64,000 bases of DNA from Methanosarcina sp. KYL-1 (GTDB lineage: Archaea; Halobacteriota; Methanosarcinia; Methanosarcinales; Methanosarcinaceae): assembly GCF_024372725.1 (NCBI RefSeq), contig NZ_VOUA01000012.1, positions 31,619 through 95,618 of the forward strand, written 5' to 3'. The notes beneath the pieces are model-generated. The model saw nothing but the letters and a program-made list of their open reading frames with translations. It had not been told where the DNA came from and made no database searches. This document shows, one piece after another, positions 3,058 to 12,598 of the stretch. The translations under genes were made by a program, and so were the position numbers. Every line of letters begins with the position of its first letter. The stretch's first letter is position 1.

Positions 3058-3374
3058 GTCGATCAGAACTGCAGATCATTACTTTTTGGTAAGATTTAAG
3101 GTAGTTCTAAGAATACGATTTTTAGGTAGTTCAAAGAAGAACAGGCACAAACATTAATTAATTTTCGCCTATTTTCTTTGTGGGTAGATATGGCAACTTC
3201 AGCCCTTTTATTATCATGACCAGAAATAATTTTAACACAGACTGGCATGTAAAATTAAACTTCTTTATCCAGAATCAGTATCAGAAGGTATAGCATGAAA
3301 AGCCTTATACATAATAAAAAAAATTAAACATATAAGGTTAATAATGAGTTCTCTTTTTATTGGTATGGTTTAAG
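3058..3374. promoter_or_regulatory. divergent promoter region of mtxX and rfcL
   Basis: 317 bp between divergent genes. For rfcL, the TATA-like ACATATAAGG at about 3328-3337 lies about 40 nt before the start, which predicts a short leader. On the minus side the region before mtxX is AT-rich (AATTAATTAATT near 3150) and could hold its TATA box. No operator-like repeats were seen. Confidence 0.45.
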
Positions 3375-5300
3375 ATGACGTCGGCAATCGAATGGGCTGA
3401 GAAATACCGCCCCCAGACCCTCGCGGATATTGTGGGGAACAAAAAGGCAGTGCATGATTTCCGGAGCTGGGCTGAGGAGTGGCTTTCGGGCATCCCCGAG
3501 AAGAGGGCTGTGATCCTCGAGGGGCCTGCAGGGATTGGGAAAACGTCCAGTGCCCACGCCCTTGCCCGGGATATGGGCTGGGAGGCTATTGAGCTTAACG
3601 CAAGCGACCAGAGGACCGAAGCCGTGATCGAGAAAATTGCGGGGTCGGCAGCTTCTATGAACACCCTCTTTGGGGGAAAACGCCTGATCATTCTGGATGA
3701 AGCGGACAATATCCACGGGACCGCGGACCGGGGCGGGATGCGGGCGATATCCGGGATCATTAAAAATACGCTTCATCCGATCGTACTTATTGCAAACGAC
3801 GTTTACGGGCTCACCCCTACAATCCGGGGGCTCTGCCTGGAAATCAAGTTCGGGTCAGTGCAGAGCCGTTCCATGGTCCCGGCTCTGAAGAAGGTCTGCG
3901 ATGCCGAGGGCATCCGCTGTAGCCCCGAAGCGGTCCAGCAGATTGCGGAAAATGCGGGAGGAGACCTCCGGAGTGCCATGAACGACCTCCAGGCTGCAGC
4001 CAGCGGGAGACAGGTTCTGGAAGCCGAAGACATCAGTACGGCAGGCAGGGACGTAAAGGACAATATTTTCAAGGCAATGCAGAAGATCTTCAAGAGCACT
4101 GACTGCAAAAAGGCCCTTGAAGCTTCACGCGGGCTTGACGAAAGCCCGGAAGACCTGGTGCACTGGATCGATGAAAACCTGCCTATCCAGTATGCGGGAA
4201 AAGGCGGCGAACTCGACGACATCAGGACAGGCTTTGATTATCTCTCAAAGGCGGACCTCTACCTGGGGCGCGTAAAGAGACGCCAGAACTACCGGATGTG
4301 GAGGTATGCCAGCATGCTTATGGTCTGCGGGGCCTCACTTTCGAAGTCCAGGCCCTACCCCGGCTTTATCAAGTACCAGCAGCCTTCGCTCTGGAAGAGG
4401 CTCGGGCAGACCCGGTCAAAACGGGACATGCGGGATAATATTGCTTCAAAGGTAGGGGTACATTCCTTTGAGTCCATGCACTATTCCAGGAGCAGCCTGC
4501 TTGGGCTTTATTCCCGGATGCTAAATGATGAGGCTTATGCTGTTGACATCGCGGCAGGCCTCGGGCTTGAACTTGAAGAGTTAATGTACCTTTCGGGAAG
4601 CAGCAAGGCTAGCAAAAAGCTCCAGAAAATCTATGATGAGGCCCAGGCTTTGCTGATTAGCGGGGACAAAGAGGGGGCCAGGGAACCCGAATTCTTCAAG
4701 CAACCGGAAAAACCAGGGAAAAAGCAGATGTCTCTGGACTGTCCGGCTCCATCAGAGCCCGCAAAAAAGGCCTCTTCCCTTCCTGAGATCTCAGTTGTCA
4801 CCGGACTCGATATACATGTTTCTCCAGATTCTGAAGGAAAGCAGAGGACCCTTAATTTCGGGTTTGCTGCTTCCCCTGAAGAACCCCGGAAACCGGAAAC
4901 AGAAGAAAAGAAGTCCTTTGTCGGCTTTGAATACGTGGAAAGTAAGGCCTTTGAAAGTAATAATTCTGAAAGTAAAGCTCTTGAATGTAATTTTCCGGAC
5001 CGAAAGGTTTCAGGTTCTGGAGTTTCTGAAAAGAGGGGCTCAGCTGATTCCGTAACTGAAGAAAGGAATGCCATTACTGTTTTGGACCCAGTGGAAAGGA
5101 AAGTCCCTGCTGGCCCGCCACTTCCGGAAAAGAATGCCTTTACCGATTCGACCTTTCCAAATAAGAAAACTTCTGTGGTCCCGAAGCTTTCTGAAAAGAA
5201 AGCTTCCGAGGGCACGGAGTCGGCAGGCCTTCCTGAAGTGGAAAGCGAAGCTCCTAAAAAAGCCGAACAGAAAACGCAAAAAACACTGTTCGACTTTTAA
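3375..5300 (+). CDS. rfcL: replication factor C large subunit
   Basis: RfcL is the large subunit of the archaeal clamp loader that opens PCNA and loads it at primer-template junctions. The AAA+ module begins [20 protein letters not shown], has Walker [10 protein letters not shown] and Walker B IILDEADN, and is followed by the helical RFC collar. The last 200 or so residues are a low-complexity, Ser/Glu/Lys-rich tail with degenerate repeats of the type SEKKA. It ends in QKTLFDF, a good PCNA-interacting (PIP) box. The tail makes this protein (641 residues) longer than typical archaeal RfcL of about 480-600. ATG 3375 fits the family N-terminus better than the upstream in-frame TTG at 3360. rfcS is not in the window. 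Confidence 0.95.
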
Positions 5301-5366: not shown

Positions 5367-5446
5367 TGTGAGCGAGTCTGGGGGTTGACTTAAAAGAAGA
5401 AGTTTTGGGGATGTTCTTGGGAAGTGGGGGTATGGACCCGCTCACA
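5367..5446 (-). ncRNA. putative C-rich small RNA, copy 1
   Basis: The minus-strand RNA would be about 80 nt, opening with UGUGAGCGGGUC and closing with GACUCGCUCACA, a 12-bp stem. The one deviation from perfect symmetry is a G-U wobble in the minus-strand RNA but an A-C clash in the plus-strand RNA, which favours minus transcription. The loop is unstructured and has four C-runs (5, 3, 4, 5). On the minus strand a TATA box (TATTTATAA, 5469-5477 on plus) lies about 30 nt before the first G, the normal archaeal distance to a start site. No known family is asserted. Confidence 0.6.
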
Positions 5447-5573
5447 TAGACTATATATGGAAATTTACTTATAAATACTTTTTTAATATATTAAAAAATA
5501 TTTTTACTCGTTGACATAATGGATAATATATTTTGAAGGATAACATTTTCTGCAGGAACTTTTGCAGTCTCAA

Positions 5574-5590
5574 GTGAGCGGGGTGGAATC
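5574..5590 (-). repeat. half copy of the C-rich element
   Basis: GTGAGCGGGGTGG on plus matches the GTGAGCGGGTTGG end of the other copies. The matching ACCCGCTCAC arm, the G-runs and the TATA box are all missing, so this looks like a decayed copy that kept only its 3' arm. Confidence 0.4.
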
Positions 5591-5711
5591 CGGAGTACGC
5601 GTGCGGATGCAGATGGCAGGCAATGCATAACCAGGCCTGGAAAGAGAATGGGATGTTTCTCTCAGGTTTCAGGAAAAGTTCGAAAAGTGGCCAGAAAGGT
5701 TGAAAAGAAGG

Positions 5712-5805
5712 TGTGAGCGGGTTGGAGTGTTTTTGGGAATATTTGGGGGAATAGTTGGGGGATATGAGTTTGGGGGGTTATACTTTGAAAAGAGACCCGC
5801 TCACA
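5712..5805 (-). ncRNA. putative C-rich small RNA, copy 2
   Basis: About 94 nt on the minus strand. The outer stem pairs UGUGAGCGGGU with ACCCGCUCACA (11 bp). The loop has four C-runs (6, 5, 5, 3) set in A/U-rich spacers. A minus-strand TATA box (TATTTATAT; plus 5827-5835) lies 29 nt before the first G of GTGAGCGGG, as in the other copies. The DNA after the 3' arm is pyrimidine-rich and could terminate the transcript. Confidence 0.6.
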
Positions 5806-6439
5806 GAGCATCTGTACCATCACATCATATAAATACTTTTTCCTTATATATTGTATATTTTATAATTCGGGCATGTATCTTTATTTTTAAAAATGTTCTC
5901 CCAGGTCCTCTCGTCCGTCTTTCAATATGTGGCTCTTTCGATATGGCAAAATAAGCTACATGCACGTATTTCTCTCCAATTCAAAGAGTTATTTAAAGGG
6001 TATTTGCCCTTCTGAAGAAAGTCGGTTTTTCCTGTGACAAGTTACAGGCCGGGTGCAAAAATGAAGTGTAAAAGCATTGAGGGAGCATTGGAGGAGGATT
6101 TCTATTTTTGGGTTGAATCCTTTTTTGTTTTAATCTTTTTTTTGAACTTTTTAGTATTAATTGCCTGGTTTATCTGGCAGTGGGGATGTCAGCTGAAAAA
6201 AATGAATAGCTTTTTGAGTTTTCTATGGGGACGAGAGTCTTGCATTCGGAACGTGACAATTTTATATTGAATATATATAATTTTCTCTTTATGCTAATCT
6301 CCGGATGCAAGGATTAAAGGCAGGAATACCGCTTCTGCCCATCTGAATAAACACTCACTTTCGCCGGTTATAGGGTTATCGGAGAAAAAGTCGGTACATT
6401 AATCATTACGAAAATCAGTAAGAATCAGTAAGAATCATA

Positions 6440-6513
6440 GTGAGCGGGTTGGGGAGTATGAATTGGGGGTGTTGGGGGGTTGGGGTTATCTTACAAAATA
6501 GAGACCCGCTCAC
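6440..6513 (-). ncRNA. putative C-rich small RNA, copy 3
   Basis: About 74 nt on the minus strand, the shortest copy. The outer stem pairs GUGAGCGGGU with ACCCGCUCAC. The loop holds C-runs of 4, 6, 5 and 4. A minus-strand TATA box (TATTTATA; plus 6537-6544) is 29 nt upstream. Loop length and spacer sequence differ between copies, while the stem, C-run number and promoter distance are kept, as expected if the RNA is what matters. Confidence 0.6.
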
Positions 6514-6814
6514 AAATACCTTTCATGTTGATATACTATAAATATTTGTTGCTCTGTTCCACTCTGGTTTTTTGTGGATGGCTGAAAACCCCACTTTTTG
6601 GGAAAATATATTTTTTCGGGGCTAATTCTATCATTTTTTTAGATTCTACCCTGATATCATCCTAAATTAGATGCAATCCCTTTAAAGAATATGAGAAACT
6701 TGCCCTGTATTCTTTTCTAAAGTTCATTTGCAATCAAAAACAATATATATAACTAATGCCTTTTTGGTCTTGCATTAAGAGCAAGCTTCTGAAAATGCAT
6801 GTGAATGGCAAAAT

Positions 6815-6888
6815 GGGCTCGTGGTCTAGTCGGTCATGACATCGCCTTTACACGGCGGGGATCCTGAGTTCGAATCTCAGCGGGCCCA
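6815..6888 (+). tRNA. tRNA-Val (anticodon TAC)
   Basis: A full cloverleaf: acceptor GGGCTCG pairs with CGGGCCC, the D arm is GTCT/TGAC, the anticodon stem TCGCC/GGCGG holds the loop TTTACAC with anticodon TAC, and the T arm is CTGAG-TTCGAAT-CTCAG. The discriminator base is A and CCA is not encoded. A TATA-like box at 6743-6752 suggests a leader of about 45 nt. The T-rich run from 6890 probably ends transcription. Confidence 0.96.
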
Positions 6889-7573
6889 TACCCTTTTAAA
6901 TCCTTCTTTTTTGATTATATGGTTTTTTAATACCTTCTTTTCAAGTTTCTCAATTCTCGATTCAATGTCAGATTTAGCGGTGGGTTATACAACTTCTATA
7001 TTACTATCAAATCTTCATACAGGGAAATTGCCTTATAATCCTGTATTTGCCTTAAGGAATCAGTATTTGGCTACTTGATATAAAATTGTTATACCACTCT
7101 TTTTTCCGGGTTATGCCCCAGTTTAACTCTATATAGAAAGTTCACTTTAAAAATAAATCCTTGGTGAAGATTCATTTAAATTTTCAGAGGGCAGGGAATG
7201 AATGTGGCTCTTCTTCGTATTCCCTGATAAGATGATTCAATTCAATGTATTAATTGGTTTTTGGGAGGGATACTCACTCAAAAAACCAGGAAACATTAAT
7301 TCTACAAGGTGCAAGGCTACAAAAAAGATGTTGAGCTCCTGTTTGAGGCAACAGGACTGCTTTTACGTCTAGATGAAAACTCTTTTTCGGTTGAGTTGAT
7401 GAGAAAAATCCTGACGTCGTTTTTGAAAGAGATAGGAAGGAGGCCCCCAAATTCATTTTATTGGCATGAAAGTACTGTGACTTGAAAAGTACTTTCATTT
7501 ATTTGAGCCTGCTATTCGAAGAATACCACGTTCATTTTTGTTACTGCTTTTTTAGGTTATGTTCCTTCCGATC
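6889..7573. other. spacer after the tRNA gene
   Basis: 685 bp, mostly AT-rich. It starts with T-rich DNA that fits termination of the tRNA transcript. It includes one coding-like fragment (7300-7485, separate entry). Nothing else could be supported. Confidence 0.5.
7300..7485 (+). pseudogene. coding-like fragment without a start codon
   Basis: After a stop at 7297-7299, a plus-strand frame stays open for 61 codons. Its composition looks like protein: YKKDVELLFEATGLLLRLDE, then FSVELMRKILTSFLKEIG. There is no ATG and no Shine-Dalgarno at its beginning. I do not recognise the family. It may be the remnant of a gene whose 5' part is gone; a chance open frame is the alternative. Confidence 0.3.
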
Positions 7574-8367: not shown

Positions 8368-10083
8368 TCAGGCAAGTGTGCAGCAGTCATCTGTCACATA
8401 CATCCAGTACCCTTTGTACGGATATACGGGGAAGAGATCCACTGTCATATGGGTCTCATCGTAACATGTGTCACTGCACCCGTTTTTGTAACCGGTGTAC
8501 TGGTAGTCCCAGTATCCATTATCACATACCCATGGGCCCACAACCTTTGAGTAGTAGCCTTCAACGGTTACAAACGCACAGTTTGCATATTGAGTGCTTG
8601 TTTCGGGAGAACCGACAGCATTCCAGCCAGGATACAACTTGAGTGCCGGAAGGACGTTATTTGTCTGCTTCCTGACGAGTTTTTCTGCCGGGATACAGCA
8701 GTCTTCCTTGGCATAAATCCAGTACCCTTTCAAAGGTTCCCAGTTCATACTCAGTGAGTGCACCCATTTATCGGCAGTGCAAGTTGCAGATGCGTCATAG
8801 TACTGGACACACGTAACAACATCAGATAAACCGCAGAGGACATCTTTAAAGGCCGGTTTCTCCAGTGTATACGGGATGGATACGAAGTTCCAGCCAGCAG
8901 TGAGACATAGGCCGTCGGGAAGCACTACTTCTGCTACATTGATCTGTGTGTCACAGTCGATTGCTGCAGGTTCAGACATCCCTTCCATCATGAACTCGCC
9001 GTCAAAGGTGTACGTTCCACAAGCTTCTTCAGGAATCTCTACGGTGTAGGTGTATGTCGTGTCTGCTGCACCGCTTGTGATTACCCACTTGACGTGCCCC
9101 GGTTCACAGTTGTAGTCCCCACTACCGCTTGCACCGGTTATTGTCCATCCTGCAGGAACAACCTCGTCAATGGCGTAGTATGTGGCAGAGTCCACTGTCA
9201 CGTCCAGTTTGACGGTAATCGTCGAGCCGGGTGCCTGGTCTTCTTCGGGGAGGTCCCTGCACACATTGCTGTCGTCTCCTCCGGTGACATCATCTGCAAC
9301 ATTGACCTGTGTGTCACAGTCGATTGCTGCAGGGTCTGCCATCCCCTCCATCATAAATTCGCCGTTAAAGGTATATGCTCCGCTGGCATCTTCGGGAATC
9401 TCTACGGTGTAGGTGTATGTCGTGTCTGCTGCACCGCTTGTGATTACCCACTTGACGTGCCCCGGATCTTTGGTGTAGTCCCCGCTGCCACTTGCACCGG
9501 TTACTGTCCAGCCTTCAGGAACTTCCTCGTCAATGGCGTAGTATGTGGCAGAGTCCACTGTCACGTCCAGTTTGACGGTAATCGTCGAGCCGGGTGCCTG
9601 GTCTTCTTCGGGGAGGTCCCTGCACACATTGCTGCAGTCGTCTCCTCCGGTGACATCATCTGCAACATTGACCTGTGTGTCACAGTCGATTGCTGCAGGG
9701 TCTGCCATCCCCTCCATCATAAATTCGCCGTTAAAGGTATATGCTCCGCTGGCATCTTCGGGAATCTCTACGGTGTAGGTGTATGTCGTGTCTGCTGCAC
9801 CGCTTGTGATTACCCACTTGACGTGCCCCGGATCTTTGGTGTAGTCCCCGCTGCCACTTGCACCGGTTACTGTCCAGCCTTCAGGAACTTCCTCGTCAAT
9901 GGCGTAGTATGTGGCAGAACCCACCGTTACACCCAGTGAGACGGTAATCGTTGAACCTGGTGCCAGATCACCCGATGGAAGATCCCTGCAGACATTAGAG
10001 GAACCTGTAGCTGATGCCCCCAAAGGTAATGCCGCTAAAAGCAGCATTGCTACAATTCCAATCGTCATAATTGCTTTATTCAT
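8368..10083 (-). CDS. secreted protein with three tandem beta-type domains
   Basis: A 571-residue exported protein with a signal peptide (residues 1-25, ending GASA). Three repeats of about 120 residues follow, each starting SNVCRDLP and containing GSTITV, SATYYAIDE, GHVKWVITSGAADTTYTYTV and CDTQ(V/I)NVA. The first two are almost identical in amino acids and DNA. The C-terminal 180 residues hold two further related units with GWN near the start and GYW(I/M)Y plus a CC pair at the end. Cysteines are plentiful, which suggests disulfides outside the cell. There is no membrane anchor. It lies 64 bp after the 816-residue protein gene and is probably co-transcribed. An S-layer or adhesion-type role is a guess. 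Confidence 0.75.
   Translation of the reverse strand: MNKAIMTIGIVAMLLLAALPLGASATGSSNVCRDLPSGDLAPGSTITVSLGVTVGSATYYAIDEEVPEGWTVTGASGSGDYTKDPGHVKWVITSGAADTTYTYTVEIPEDASGAYTFNGEFMMEGMADPAAIDCDTQVNVADDVTGGDDCSNVCRDLPEEDQAPGSTITVKLDVTVDSATYYAIDEEVPEGWTVTGASGSGDYTKDPGHVKWVITSGAADTTYTYTVEIPEDASGAYTFNGEFMMEGMADPAAIDCDTQVNVADDVTGGDDSNVCRDLPEEDQAPGSTITVKLDVTVDSATYYAIDEVVPAGWTITGASGSGDYNCEPGHVKWVITSGAADTTYTYTVEIPEEACGTYTFDGEFMMEGMSEPAAIDCDTQINVAEVVLPDGLCLTAGWNFVSIPYTLEKPAFKDVLCGLSDVVTCVQYYDASATCTADKWVHSLSMNWEPLKGYWIYAKEDCCIPAEKLVRKQTNNVLPALKLYPGWNAVGSPETSTQYANCAFVTVEGYYSKVVGPWVCDNGYWDYQYTGYKNGCSDTCYDETHMTVDLFPVYPYKGYWMYVTDDCCTLA
9187..9912 (-). repeat. 363-bp tandem duplication within the surface gene
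   Basis: Two adjacent units of about 363 bp (boundary near 9550) encode repeat domains 1 and 2 of the secreted protein and look nearly identical in DNA. Visible differences are a 3-bp CAG addition near 9632 and sequence drift at the outer ends. The third domain (about 8940-9186) is clearly more diverged, so the duplication is recent or kept uniform by recombination. Confidence 0.85.
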
Positions 10084-10147: not shown

Positions 10148-12598
10148 TCAACAATACGGAGTCCCTGCTTTCCAGTAACAGATGACTTCCATCATGTCTT
10201 CCATCGACAGGGATCCTGCTTTCCAGTCTCCGATTGCGTCCATCATTTCATCGATCTGTATTATGCAGTCCTCGTTTGCATCGTACGGGTTGTATTCAGG
10301 TTCCACTGGTGGCTCCTGCGGGTCTTCATCAATATATTCCGGCGGAACGAACAGCCTGAAGTCACCTGCTGTTACAAATCCGGCATGCATGATGTCCTGA
10401 CATTCGGTGATCTGCTTGAGGTACAGGATATCACTGCATGTCCAGTCACCGCTGCAGTCAACATCGAAGATTGAGATGTACCATTCCACAGGGTTGATTA
10501 TGCACATGCCTTCAGGGTCGGTGTTCTTGAAGAACTGCCAGCTAAGGTCCCTGTCTCCAATTTCGATCTGTGAAAATGCTTCACCGATAGAACCAGCAGG
10601 TCCGAACGGTCCGTCGACCACAGGTACCTGGGTGAGCCTGATGTCGCCGGGGCTTGGTCCTACGTCTTCAATTATCGGGAATGCATCCCAATCAATCATA
10701 TCGGTTTCAATGTACAGCGGGTCGGTCACATCATAGACATCGTTGTCATTCAGGTCTACGAAGAAGAGGTATCCGAATCCGAATTCTCCATCACAATATC
10801 CGGGCCCGAAGTTAAGGGCACGCTCAAGGTCCTCAGCGTGCTGGTCGAGTACCTTGGTGTTTGGCGGGTAAGTTGTATACTTGCAGACCGCTTCTGTCAA
10901 CCTGATGTCACCAATTGAAACTTCTCCATCACCGTCCATGTCAATGTATGCTGCCTCACCAACATCGAATTCATCATTGTCGTTCTTGTCAAAGAATCCG
11001 ATGTCAATACACAGATCATCATTCATTAATGGCCACCAGTAGAGAGCGTGTGTCACGTCGATGTCGCACATCGTGACTTTCGTGCCACAGTCGTACCATC
11101 CTTCTTCCTCGATTGCTTCAGGTGGGACGTAGATCCTGAGGTCACCGATGGTCACGAACTTGTTGTGTGGCAGTGCGTGGTTTTCATCAGTCTCTACCAT
11201 CTGCTGCAGGTACAGCTTGTCCACGCAGGTCCAATCCCCGCTGCAGTCGGAGTCAACATATCCGAGCAACTCCCATACGCATGCATTTTCACCATATGCA
11301 TTTGGCACTTCCTCAAGATACCAGCCTGCATCGTCATCATCTACAACTCCGGGTCCGGCAACCACAACAGACCACTGCATTCCAATATCGCCTGCCATGT
11401 AGGCTGGAGTGTCTATCACAGGAACCTGAGACAGCCTGATGTCGCCGTTTGATACGTAATCATTGTAGTCGAGGTCGATGTATATGGGGTCTACAAGTGA
11501 GTAACCGTAATTGGCATCAAAGTCATAGTAGTGGATGATGTCATTCTGATCCGGGAAGCACAGCTGGTGCCCGAGGTCGTAGTAGTCACATTCGGCTACC
11601 TTGGTGTTTGGTTCGTAGTGGTTGGATACGCTTGAAAGCCTGATGTCACCAACAGAAACTTCTCCATCCCCATCCATATCAAGATAGACCTCTACATCAT
11701 TGAATGTTCCAATCTGTGGAAGGTTTGCGTCTCCGTTGATAGACTCCTCCACACCAACACTATCGACCTCACCGAAAACCATGAGGGCGTAGGTGGCGTC
11801 AAAGTCGCCCTGAAGCACCTTGGTGCCGCATTCCGGTACACATTCGTCATCAAGCGGGATGTAAAGCCTGACGTCTCCGATTGTGGCGAAATAGTCAAAG
11901 TGGTGGTTGAGTTCATCGTGTGGCTGGTTCAGGTAGAGTTTGTCACCTGCGCTCCACTCGCCATCACAGTCGGAATCTACGAACCCTACGAGTTCGTCGA
12001 GGTATCCGCAACCTATGTAACAAAGGTCTTCAAACGGATCTATAGTGTCTTTATCCCCAAAGGCTACAACTGTCCACTTCTCACCAAATTCGCCGGCTTC
12101 ATAGATAAGTACACCATTTTCATTGTACACGTCAAGAGCCGGAGAAGCAGTTACCCTAATGTCACCAGGAGTGATTTCTGTGTCGCCATCCAGGTCAAAG
12201 TACACAGGATCTTCAATGTCAAAGCCGTCATCTTTGATGTCCAGGAAGCAAACTAACGGATACTCATCAAGGACCTCAACGATCTGGTCTCCTGCATCTC
12301 CGCCAATGTCATCAACGCCGACCATTGTGTTTGGCCCATAGTTGTTGTGATACCAGGTGATCCTGACATCTCCTTCCGATATGGCATAGTCGTACGGTGT
12401 AAGATCAATGTAATATGTACCATGATCGCTTAGCACGATTTCGGCCGGACAGTTTCTCTCAAGTGCAAATGTACTGTCCTGGTCACATTGCACAACTTTT
12501 GTGCCACAAGGTTCTATGCAGGCACAAGCCTGCACTGCAGCTACCGTGGACAATGCCAGGATAGCTACAATTAAGAACGCGCTTATTTTCCATCGCAT
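10148..12598 (-). CDS. secreted acidic protein with EF-hand-like repeats and dockerin-like end
   Basis: An 816-residue exported protein. The signal peptide ends near VAAVQACA. Three long repeats of about 250 residues follow, each opening with CGTKV and containing three GD(I/V/L/F)R motifs, nine in all. Several of these follow acidic calcium-loop sequences such as DMDGDGEVSVGDIRL and DLDGDTEITPGDIRV. DSDCSGDWTC-type loops recur once per repeat. The C-terminal 50 residues (DANEDCIIQIDEMMDAIGDW, then a second shorter half) look like a dockerin or paired EF-hand module. Calcium binding at the cell surface is inferred. It is the first gene of a three-gene minus-strand run. The family is not named here. 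Confidence 0.75.
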   Translation of the reverse strand: MRWKISAFLIVAILALSTVAAVQACACIEPCGTKVVQCDQDSTFALERNCPAEIVLSDHGTYYIDLTPYDYAISEGDVRITWYHNNYGPNTMVGVDDIGGDAGDQIVEVLDEYPLVCFLDIKDDGFDIEDPVYFDLDGDTEITPGDIRVTASPALDVYNENGVLIYEAGEFGEKWTVVAFGDKDTIDPFEDLCYIGCGYLDELVGFVDSDCDGEWSAGDKLYLNQPHDELNHHFDYFATIGDVRLYIPLDDECVPECGTKVLQGDFDATYALMVFGEVDSVGVEESINGDANLPQIGTFNDVEVYLDMDGDGEVSVGDIRLSSVSNHYEPNTKVAECDYYDLGHQLCFPDQNDIIHYYDFDANYGYSLVDPIYIDLDYNDYVSNGDIRLSQVPVIDTPAYMAGDIGMQWSVVVAGPGVVDDDDAGWYLEEVPNAYGENACVWELLGYVDSDCSGDWTCVDKLYLQQMVETDENHALPHNKFVTIGDLRIYVPPEAIEEEGWYDCGTKVTMCDIDVTHALYWWPLMNDDLCIDIGFFDKNDNDEFDVGEAAYIDMDGDGEVSIGDIRLTEAVCKYTTYPPNTKVLDQHAEDLERALNFGPGYCDGEFGFGYLFFVDLNDNDVYDVTDPLYIETDMIDWDAFPIIEDVGPSPGDIRLTQVPVVDGPFGPAGSIGEAFSQIEIGDRDLSWQFFKNTDPEGMCIINPVEWYISIFDVDCSGDWTCSDILYLKQITECQDIMHAGFVTAGDFRLFVPPEYIDEDPQEPPVEPEYNPYDANEDCIIQIDEMMDAIGDWKAGSLSMEDMMEVICYWKAGTPYC

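Follow-up and report, generated by a model that had tools for sequence, protein, structure and literature searches.

A predicted order-wide family of stem-closed, C-loop small RNA genes in Methanosarcinales, with loops that may pair with G-rich ribosome-binding sites

The interval between rfcL and a tRNA-Val gene in this stretch of Methanosarcina DNA holds three short elements, E1 to E3, which on comparative grounds we assign with high confidence to the genes of a conserved, order-wide family of predicted small non-coding RNAs. Each gene would have its own TATA-box promoter and give rise to an RNA of 50–100 nt, closed by a covarying terminal stem and exposing a C-rich loop that often bears ACUCCC. 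We predict with moderate confidence that these RNAs act by pairing of the C-rich loop with G-rich ribosome sites. The reading that joins all of this—a conserved RNA family with its own promoters whose loops would pair with such sites and lower the translation of chosen mRNAs—is a serious but tentative proposal. Coordinates without a contig or locus name refer to the window, i.e. the whole stretch of 64,000 nucleotides that was analysed. Its relevant features are:

3360..5300, plus strand: rfcL, encoding the large subunit of replication factor C (match to NF003231 at 863.6 bits, cut-off 442), convergent with E1
5368..5445, minus strand: E1, of type C; the predicted RNA is ~78 nt long and begins near 5445; its stem, GTGAGCGGGTC/GACTCGCTCAC, contains a single G-U; loop with four C-runs and CTTCTTC...AAGTC
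5470..5475, minus strand: TATA box of E1, TTTATA, starting at −30 from the first stem G
5713..5804, minus strand: E2, of type B; the predicted RNA is ~92 nt long and begins near 5804; its loop is built from a ~12-nt C-rich unit (CCCCCAACTATT)
5828..5833, minus strand: TATA box of E2, TTTATA, starting at −29 from the first stem G
6440..6513, minus strand: E3, of type A; the predicted RNA is ~74 nt long and begins near 6513; loop ending in ACTCCCCA and almost unchanged across 8 aligned sequences
6537..6542, minus strand: TATA box of E3, TTTATA, starting at −29 from the first stem G
6814..6889, plus strand: tRNA-Val (TAC), flanking the cluster

An initial annotation of this DNA had proposed that the three elements share their arms and their orientation, and the window bears this out. 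The arm GTGAGCGGGT or a one-mismatch copy of it occurs eight times against 1.78 expected, a number that none of 100 shuffles reached; six of the eight copies form the three arm pairs and the other two lie at 5574 and 42359. The arms are 10 nt long, pair with each other and enclose loops of 58 (E1), 72 (E2) and 54 nt (E3), each with four C-runs of at least 3; a search of the window for the arm pattern with a gap of 20–50 nt gave no match, because the loops measure 54–72 nt. On the minus strand, E1, E2 and E3 are predicted to fold with −22.0, −17.3 and −18.2 kcal/mol (z −6.7, −5.9 and −5.3), and none of 200 shuffles was as good; the plus strand folds too (z −3.1, −4.5 and −3.0). The only irregular arm pair, pair 8 of E1, is a G-U in the minus-strand RNA, as first described, and would be A-C in a plus-strand RNA; relatives of E1 have the compensatory arm GTGAGCGGA/TCCGCTCAC. 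A lone arm, GTGAGCGGGG, lies between E1 and E2 at 5574–5583 (+) and is possibly a decayed copy; as an extra element it was rejected, being no more than chance would give by the arm counts of the window. Further along the window, two reading frames on the minus strand (8368–10083 and 10148–12598) look secreted by eye, one with long near-identical repeats and the other rich in short acidic repeats.

Relatives are found at the same place in other genomes. When the database was scanned for arms 45–75 nt apart, 95 stretches matched, and the following figures rest on the 80 listed. Among the matches listed, nine loci came from Methanosarcina, Methanosarcinaceae or a euryarchaeote and were analysed further; the other 71 listed stretches carry the names of other organisms and were left out. 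Eight of the nine loci contained nine elements, C-rich on one strand and preceded by a TATA-like stretch, and rfcL was present in seven of the nine, tRNA-Val TAC in six, both in five and at least one in eight. The copies fall into types that are each separately conserved, namely A (represented by E3), B (E2, in which a ~12-nt C-rich unit recurs) and C (E1), and the order is tRNA-Val–A–B–C–rfcL wherever all three were found. Across 24 loci of ~2–3 kb from the genus, both flanking genes were seen in 16 and at least one in 22. One type B element (L032:5878-5967, minus strand, the same as L103) sits away from this locus, near reading frames that by eye resemble adenylosuccinate lyase and thioredoxin, reflecting either relocation or a misassembled contig.

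A fourth type, E, lies elsewhere in the genome to which the window belongs (C37:7242-7314) and is near-identical in 20 fetched genomes. Mean pairwise identity among 17 genomes, all of the genus, is 98.6% within the element and 94% at −40..−21, drops to 66–75% over the 20 nt that border the element on each side and at −60..−41, and is down to 32–44% beyond −60 and +20. An MFS gene adjoins type E in 23 of 24 loci (22 genomes), and a membrane pyrophosphatase gene at least 86% identical to that of genome G014 is found in 9 of the 24 short type E stretches. The distance from type E to cdhC is 23–27 kb in three genomes and that to nifE ~21–32 kb in six fetched genomes.

A covariance model, R1, built from 24 elements and giving rough E-values, took the place of a whole-genome pattern with a 25–55 nt gap, which reaches short-loop copies only and had matched 5 of 39 genomes. 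Three of these five belong to a second family of the order, whose copies adjoin glutamate synthase- and CoA-disulfide reductase-like genes. The covariance-model search of Methanosarcina genomes that the initial annotation had suggested as a check returned a match in 29 of 30, the one miss being a genome that is 60% complete. Throughout the order, R1 matched 169 of 185 genomes (115 of 117 good ones) in 25 of 27 genera, with 1–8 matches per matched genome and none in genera g16 (0/6 genomes) and g18 (0/2). A phylum-wide sample of 246 genomes yielded 43 with matches, 35 from the same order and eight weak ones from one family of the same class, and none among genomes related only at the level of the phylum. 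Class-wide, 176 of 237 genomes had a match at E ≤ 0.001, 11 of them in the same-class family f6, in which weak matches (E 2e-5 to 1e-3) were seen in G277, G255, G400, G416, G428, G434 and others; the RNA family may thus predate the order. The elements are between 48 and 104 nt long, and family f3 includes two near-identical copies ~176 nt apart with similar promoters (L178, L179). When the window and 15 loci were compared with Rfam 15 at gathering cut-offs, no family matched the elements; only tRNA and, elsewhere, a HEARO RNA reached the cut-offs, weaker matches being far below. The HEARO RNA (RF02033, 106 bits; L146:970-1209, minus strand) lies ~300 nt from a type E element.

The terminal stem behaves as an RNA stem. 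Seven of 125 R1 matches are the G-rich opposite strand and were excluded from the arm, promoter and loop counts, although they are among the 111 rows used for covariation; the rows kept comprise 118 matches, 117 of which are distinct with upstream sequence, and 102 distinct loops. The 118 sense-strand matches contain 21 distinct 9-nt arm pairs, e.g. GTGAGCGGG/CCCGCTCAC, ACGAGCGGG/CCCGCTCGT, GCGAACGGG/CCCGTTCGC and ATAAGCGGG/CCCGCTTAT, and 17 of the 21 pair at all 9 positions, a count that leans towards the stem since R1 prefers pairing sequences. One that pairs badly, L125:827, is a longer type B element that R1 cut short. In the model alignment (111 distinct rows), 8 of 10 stem pairs show changes on both sides with pairing kept. 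Such two-sided changes fill 48 cells against 6.9 after shuffling, a value that none of 500 shuffles reached, and slid structures gave at most 3; the alignment, being fitted to the stem structure, favours pairing, yet controls and raw arms agree with it. Irregular cells over the 21 arm pairs number six G-U and three A-C, and the strand bias of irregular pairs is therefore modest.

The promoter evidence is independent of how the copies were found, as the TATA box played no part in finding them. With a list of TATA-like hexamers (and, for the later comparisons, of Shine-Dalgarno motifs) that we drew up ourselves, a hexamer starting at −36..−24 from the first stem base was present in 114 of 117 distinct copies, with a peak at −28..−32, whereas six equally wide control windows placed further upstream had one in 39, 24, 17, 14, 11 and 19 of the 117. 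The 29–30 nt spacing initially read off E1 to E3, where TTTATA does start at −30, −29 and −29, is thereby placed in a family-wide pattern. Each element hence has a promoter sequence of its own, from which transcription would start at about the first stem base. Both stem covariation and promoter spacing are kept through five families of the order, and taken together with a fixed loop motif across the order they make it very likely, by comparison, that the elements are transcribed as minus-strand RNAs from their own promoters, as the initial annotation had proposed.

Within the loop, C-rich motifs are predicted to be unpaired, and a U-tract of at least four lies near the 5′ side in 105 of 117 copies. 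The initial annotation counted exactly four C-runs and took them to be the working part of the RNA. E1 to E3 do have four, but across the family the number lies anywhere between 1 and 7, with 63 of 117 copies having four and 21 only one or two. Copies that keep the arms while losing both TATA spacing and C-runs, which would have counted against the initial reading, are not the picture that emerged, at least one C-run being present in all 117 copies alongside the spacing in 114. The comparison partly supports the C-rich loop as the conserved working part, with ACUCCC plus the U-tract as its commonest unit. Of 102 distinct loops, 70 carry ACTCCC and none its reversal CCCTCA. With loops assigned to types by short motifs, ACTCCC is present in 31 and CCCACTCCC in 30 of the 33 that fall outside the four Methanosarcina types, compared with ACTCCC in 13 of 33 loops of type B and 1 of 11 of type C. 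E3 has ACTCCC, E1 has ACTTCCC and E2 ACTCCA instead, and type C, mostly without ACUCCC, may have another partner. In loci picked mostly for such elements, a TATA box precedes 47 of 55 stem-enclosed copies of CCCACTCCC, as against 0 of 17 for the reversed motif. Loop units can also be duplicated: type E contains its unit twice, and ACTCCC is found in 1–3 copies per loop where it is present. A type A loop in genome G111 (L136:1501-1603, minus strand) has the unit CAATTCATACTCCCC three times in tandem.

The same layout recurs on an unrelated stem. A second class of elements is closed by GGGCATCTG/CAGATGCCC, and the pattern GGGCATCYG-N45-75-CRGRTGCCC matched 28 of 30 genomes from the genus and 5 of 6 from two close genera, together 33 of the 111 searched in the family; none of the remaining 75 had a match, nor did any of the 111 when the pattern was read backwards. 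The genome to which the window belongs has seven such sites (contigs C10, C11, C19 and C21; L203, L212 and L291), four of which lie within 13 kb on contig C10 (27392-40304). Among 35 distinct copies from 30 loci, a TATA-like hexamer at −36..−24 precedes 34 (0–5 in controls), all 35 have the U-tract and 19 have ACTCCC; the variable stem pair is T-A in 26, T-G in 6 and C-G in 3. With four first-class and seven second-class elements, this genome therefore has at least 11 C-loop elements. Both stem sequences are conserved beyond the needs of pairing, which suggests that a protein recognises each class-specific stem, and the U-tract could be used by an Sm-like protein. A C-loop element in genome G147 (L197:1472-1536, plus strand) has a third stem, AGGTGTGTGTG/TACACACACCT, with CCCCCCACTCCCCCCACTCCCCCC in its loop. 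Comparison between genomes thus supports the family, its second class, stem pairing, promoter position, loop motif and locus order.

Whether the loops mask ribosome sites, as the initial annotation had suggested, was examined on 265 predicted genes, 227 from G014 and 38 from the window. GGGG is enriched at ribosome sites, lying in that stretch in 33 of the 265 genes whereas background windows contain it in 7, and real loops pair more strongly with ribosome-site than with background windows. However, the loops did no better over these genes than 20 dinucleotide-shuffled versions of each, and types A and B did somewhat worse, sites at −12 or lower numbering 32 against 44.1 ± 4.9 for type A and 36 against 48.6 ± 4.6 for type B. 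A global tuning of the loops to ribosome sites was therefore rejected for the genes sampled, and masking of such sites stays plausible but weakly supported. Nor was a long conserved antisense target of the 11-nt core found among the sites examined in the window's own genome, G014, G015 and others. In G014 and G015, the complement of the core occurs only inside the type E element itself. Of four further sites in the window's own genome, two are C-loop RNAs of the second class (AGGGCATCTGA/TCGGATGCCCT and AGGGCATCTGA/TCAGATGCCCT) and one is within an open frame; sites in G109 are second-class elements too, and four sites in other genomes are not.

The pattern GGGGAGTG-N3-10-ATG has 322 matches in 30 genomes against 118 for its backward control, about two per genome being type E itself; the reversed motif before ATG has 169 matches against 182 for its backward control and also recurs at some sites. 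With these GGGGAGTG sites, loop E would form 8 bp and loop A, by way of its ACUCCCC, 7 bp. They precede nifE in six fetched genomes (L253-L258), one of the frames stopping after 96 codons, an acetate uptake transporter gene in three (L228/L259/L260) and a DUF2193 gene in G014, each of the three gene families having been tested on one protein; downstream of six of the fetched sites there is no long frame, and one group lies before a conserved frame of 40 codons. With the nifE and acetate transporter sites, loop E has predicted energies of −17.6 to −20.0 kcal/mol, matched by 2–6 of 265 genes, low values that are partly expected because the sites were picked by motif. The genes for nifE and the acetate uptake transporter, whose sites recur between species, are candidate targets, chosen for their match to the motif, but Shine-Dalgarno function alone can preserve such sites. 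Pairing with a handful of 8-nt sites, moreover, would not require a loop as nearly invariant as that of type E, which counts against the pairing model.

The main rival to this pairing model is that the RNAs are protein sponges of the CsrB type, in which a protein binds the C-rich loop motif and mRNA pairing plays no role. We consider this unlikely overall, but several observations fit it well: motif units are freely duplicated (C-runs from 1 to 7, ACTCCC in 1–3 copies and threefold units in one type A loop), the motif stays constant though stem letters change and even across unrelated stems, and the search for targets gave neither an extended conserved site nor ribosome-site pairing above that of shuffled loops. 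Against it, type A and E loops are fixed in full sequence and spacing, beyond what a sponge would need, and we know of no protein that binds such C-rich loops. A scaffold of a stable housekeeping ribonucleoprotein would explain why 169 of 185 genomes of the order have 1–8 matches, why the stem runs end to end around a pyrimidine-rich loop with a U-tract and why two stem sequences are each widely kept. Y RNAs likewise combine a stem with a pyrimidine-rich loop, and the resemblance is one of outline. Element lengths of 48 to 104 nt, the absence of matches from genera g16 (0/6) and g18 (0/2) and the lack of any matching Rfam family nevertheless render a scaffold improbable. It is far less probable still that the elements act as DNA, be it as G-quadruplex or i-motif inverted repeats or as mobile repeats: E1 to E3 do each have four G-runs on the plus strand and arms that are inverted repeats, but C-runs vary from 1 to 7, the TATA box keeps a constant distance and side (114/117 in the first class, 34/35 in the second), stem changes are compensatory and the cluster is fixed at one locus, next to both flanking genes in 16 and at least one in 22 of 24 genus loci.

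Alternatively, sRNA41 of Methanosarcina mazei, or another sRNA already numbered in that species, could be identical with one of the types. sRNA41 is said to mask ribosome sites in the polycistronic ACDS mRNAs (PMC5867862), and type E lies 23–27 kb from cdhC in three genomes. Five ACDS ribosome sites paired with four loops gave −6.3 to −16.2 kcal/mol, with one in the strong tail. That site pairs fairly well with loop E (−16.2, with 9 of 265 sampled genes equally low), but the other four are poor partners of loop E (−6.3 to −9.2), several ACDS sites read AGGAGG, and the loops have no CCUCC; identity with sRNA41 or another numbered sRNA appears improbable. Returning to pairing with ribosome sites, the proposal can be extended to a modular system of translation control, carried by nearly the whole order, with at least 11 C-loop RNA genes in one genome, two unrelated but fixed stems as addresses for a carrier protein, interchangeable C-rich loops sharing an old ACUCCC seed and a regulon that includes acetate uptake and nitrogen fixation. 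Taken with all its parts, this extension is speculative and rather unlikely to hold as it stands.

A covarying stem and a fixed promoter spacing on the scale of an order, together with a second class of the same layout, provide a rare handle on the action of archaeal sRNAs, and the family is open to deletion, mutation and rescue in tractable Methanosarcina strains. If the loop seed has been fixed in evolution, its partner, be it mRNA or protein, must be old too. Should the partners be ribosome sites including those of nifE and acetate uptake genes, the family would bear on the control of methane-forming metabolism.

In the literature searched, no description of the C-loop family was met; the original M. 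mazei sRNA papers lay outside this search, so that a copy may already have an sRNA number. Searches with element fragments returned, judged by title, other organisms and subjects only, and a search combining the second stem with Methanosarcina found nothing. The closest parallels come from Gram-positive bacteria, in which the LhrC family of Listeria and RsaE are C-rich sRNAs that pair with Shine-Dalgarno sites. Like these, the C-loop family has short C-rich loop motifs, several gene copies, a tandem cluster and G-rich ribosome sites as likely partners; unlike them, it is archaeal, has TATA promoters and the motif ACUCCC, and is closed by one terminal stem. CsrB and RsmZ, protein sponges with a repeated GGA motif, share with it a repeated short single-stranded motif of variable copy number, whereas the C-loop motif is C-rich rather than GGA and no binding protein for it is known to us.

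Closer in phylogeny are the sRNAs of Methanosarcina itself. M. mazei sRNAs are mentioned in general in one paper (PMC11456600), and differential RNA-seq in Methanolobus psychrophilus is reported to have revealed nine sRNAs, highly conserved and induced by cold, that have a ‘cold box’ upstream in common (PMC5378194). Reviews describe sRNA41, sRNA154 and sRNA162 (PMC5867862, PMC3432209), and the regulatory sRNAs of Methanosarcina are presented as conserved in the genus or in a few species (PMC5867862, PMC3432209, PMC3510493). The description of sRNA41, an intergenic Methanosarcina sRNA for which ribosome-site masking has been proposed (PMC5867862), resembles the action predicted here, yet fairly good pairing with a C-loop was predicted for no more than one of the five ACDS sites. 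The primary reports give 191 nt and three stem loops for sRNA162 and its copy sRNA171, with homologues of sRNA162 reported in two relatives only (PMC3510493), and 130 nt for sRNA154 (PMC3177094). These too are intergenic in Methanosarcina and are described as masking ribosome sites with their unpaired parts (PMC5867862, PMC3510493); set against the lengths quoted there for sRNA162 (191 nt) and sRNA154 (130 nt), the C-loop elements are shorter, at 48–104 nt, have a single terminal stem and are spread through the order.
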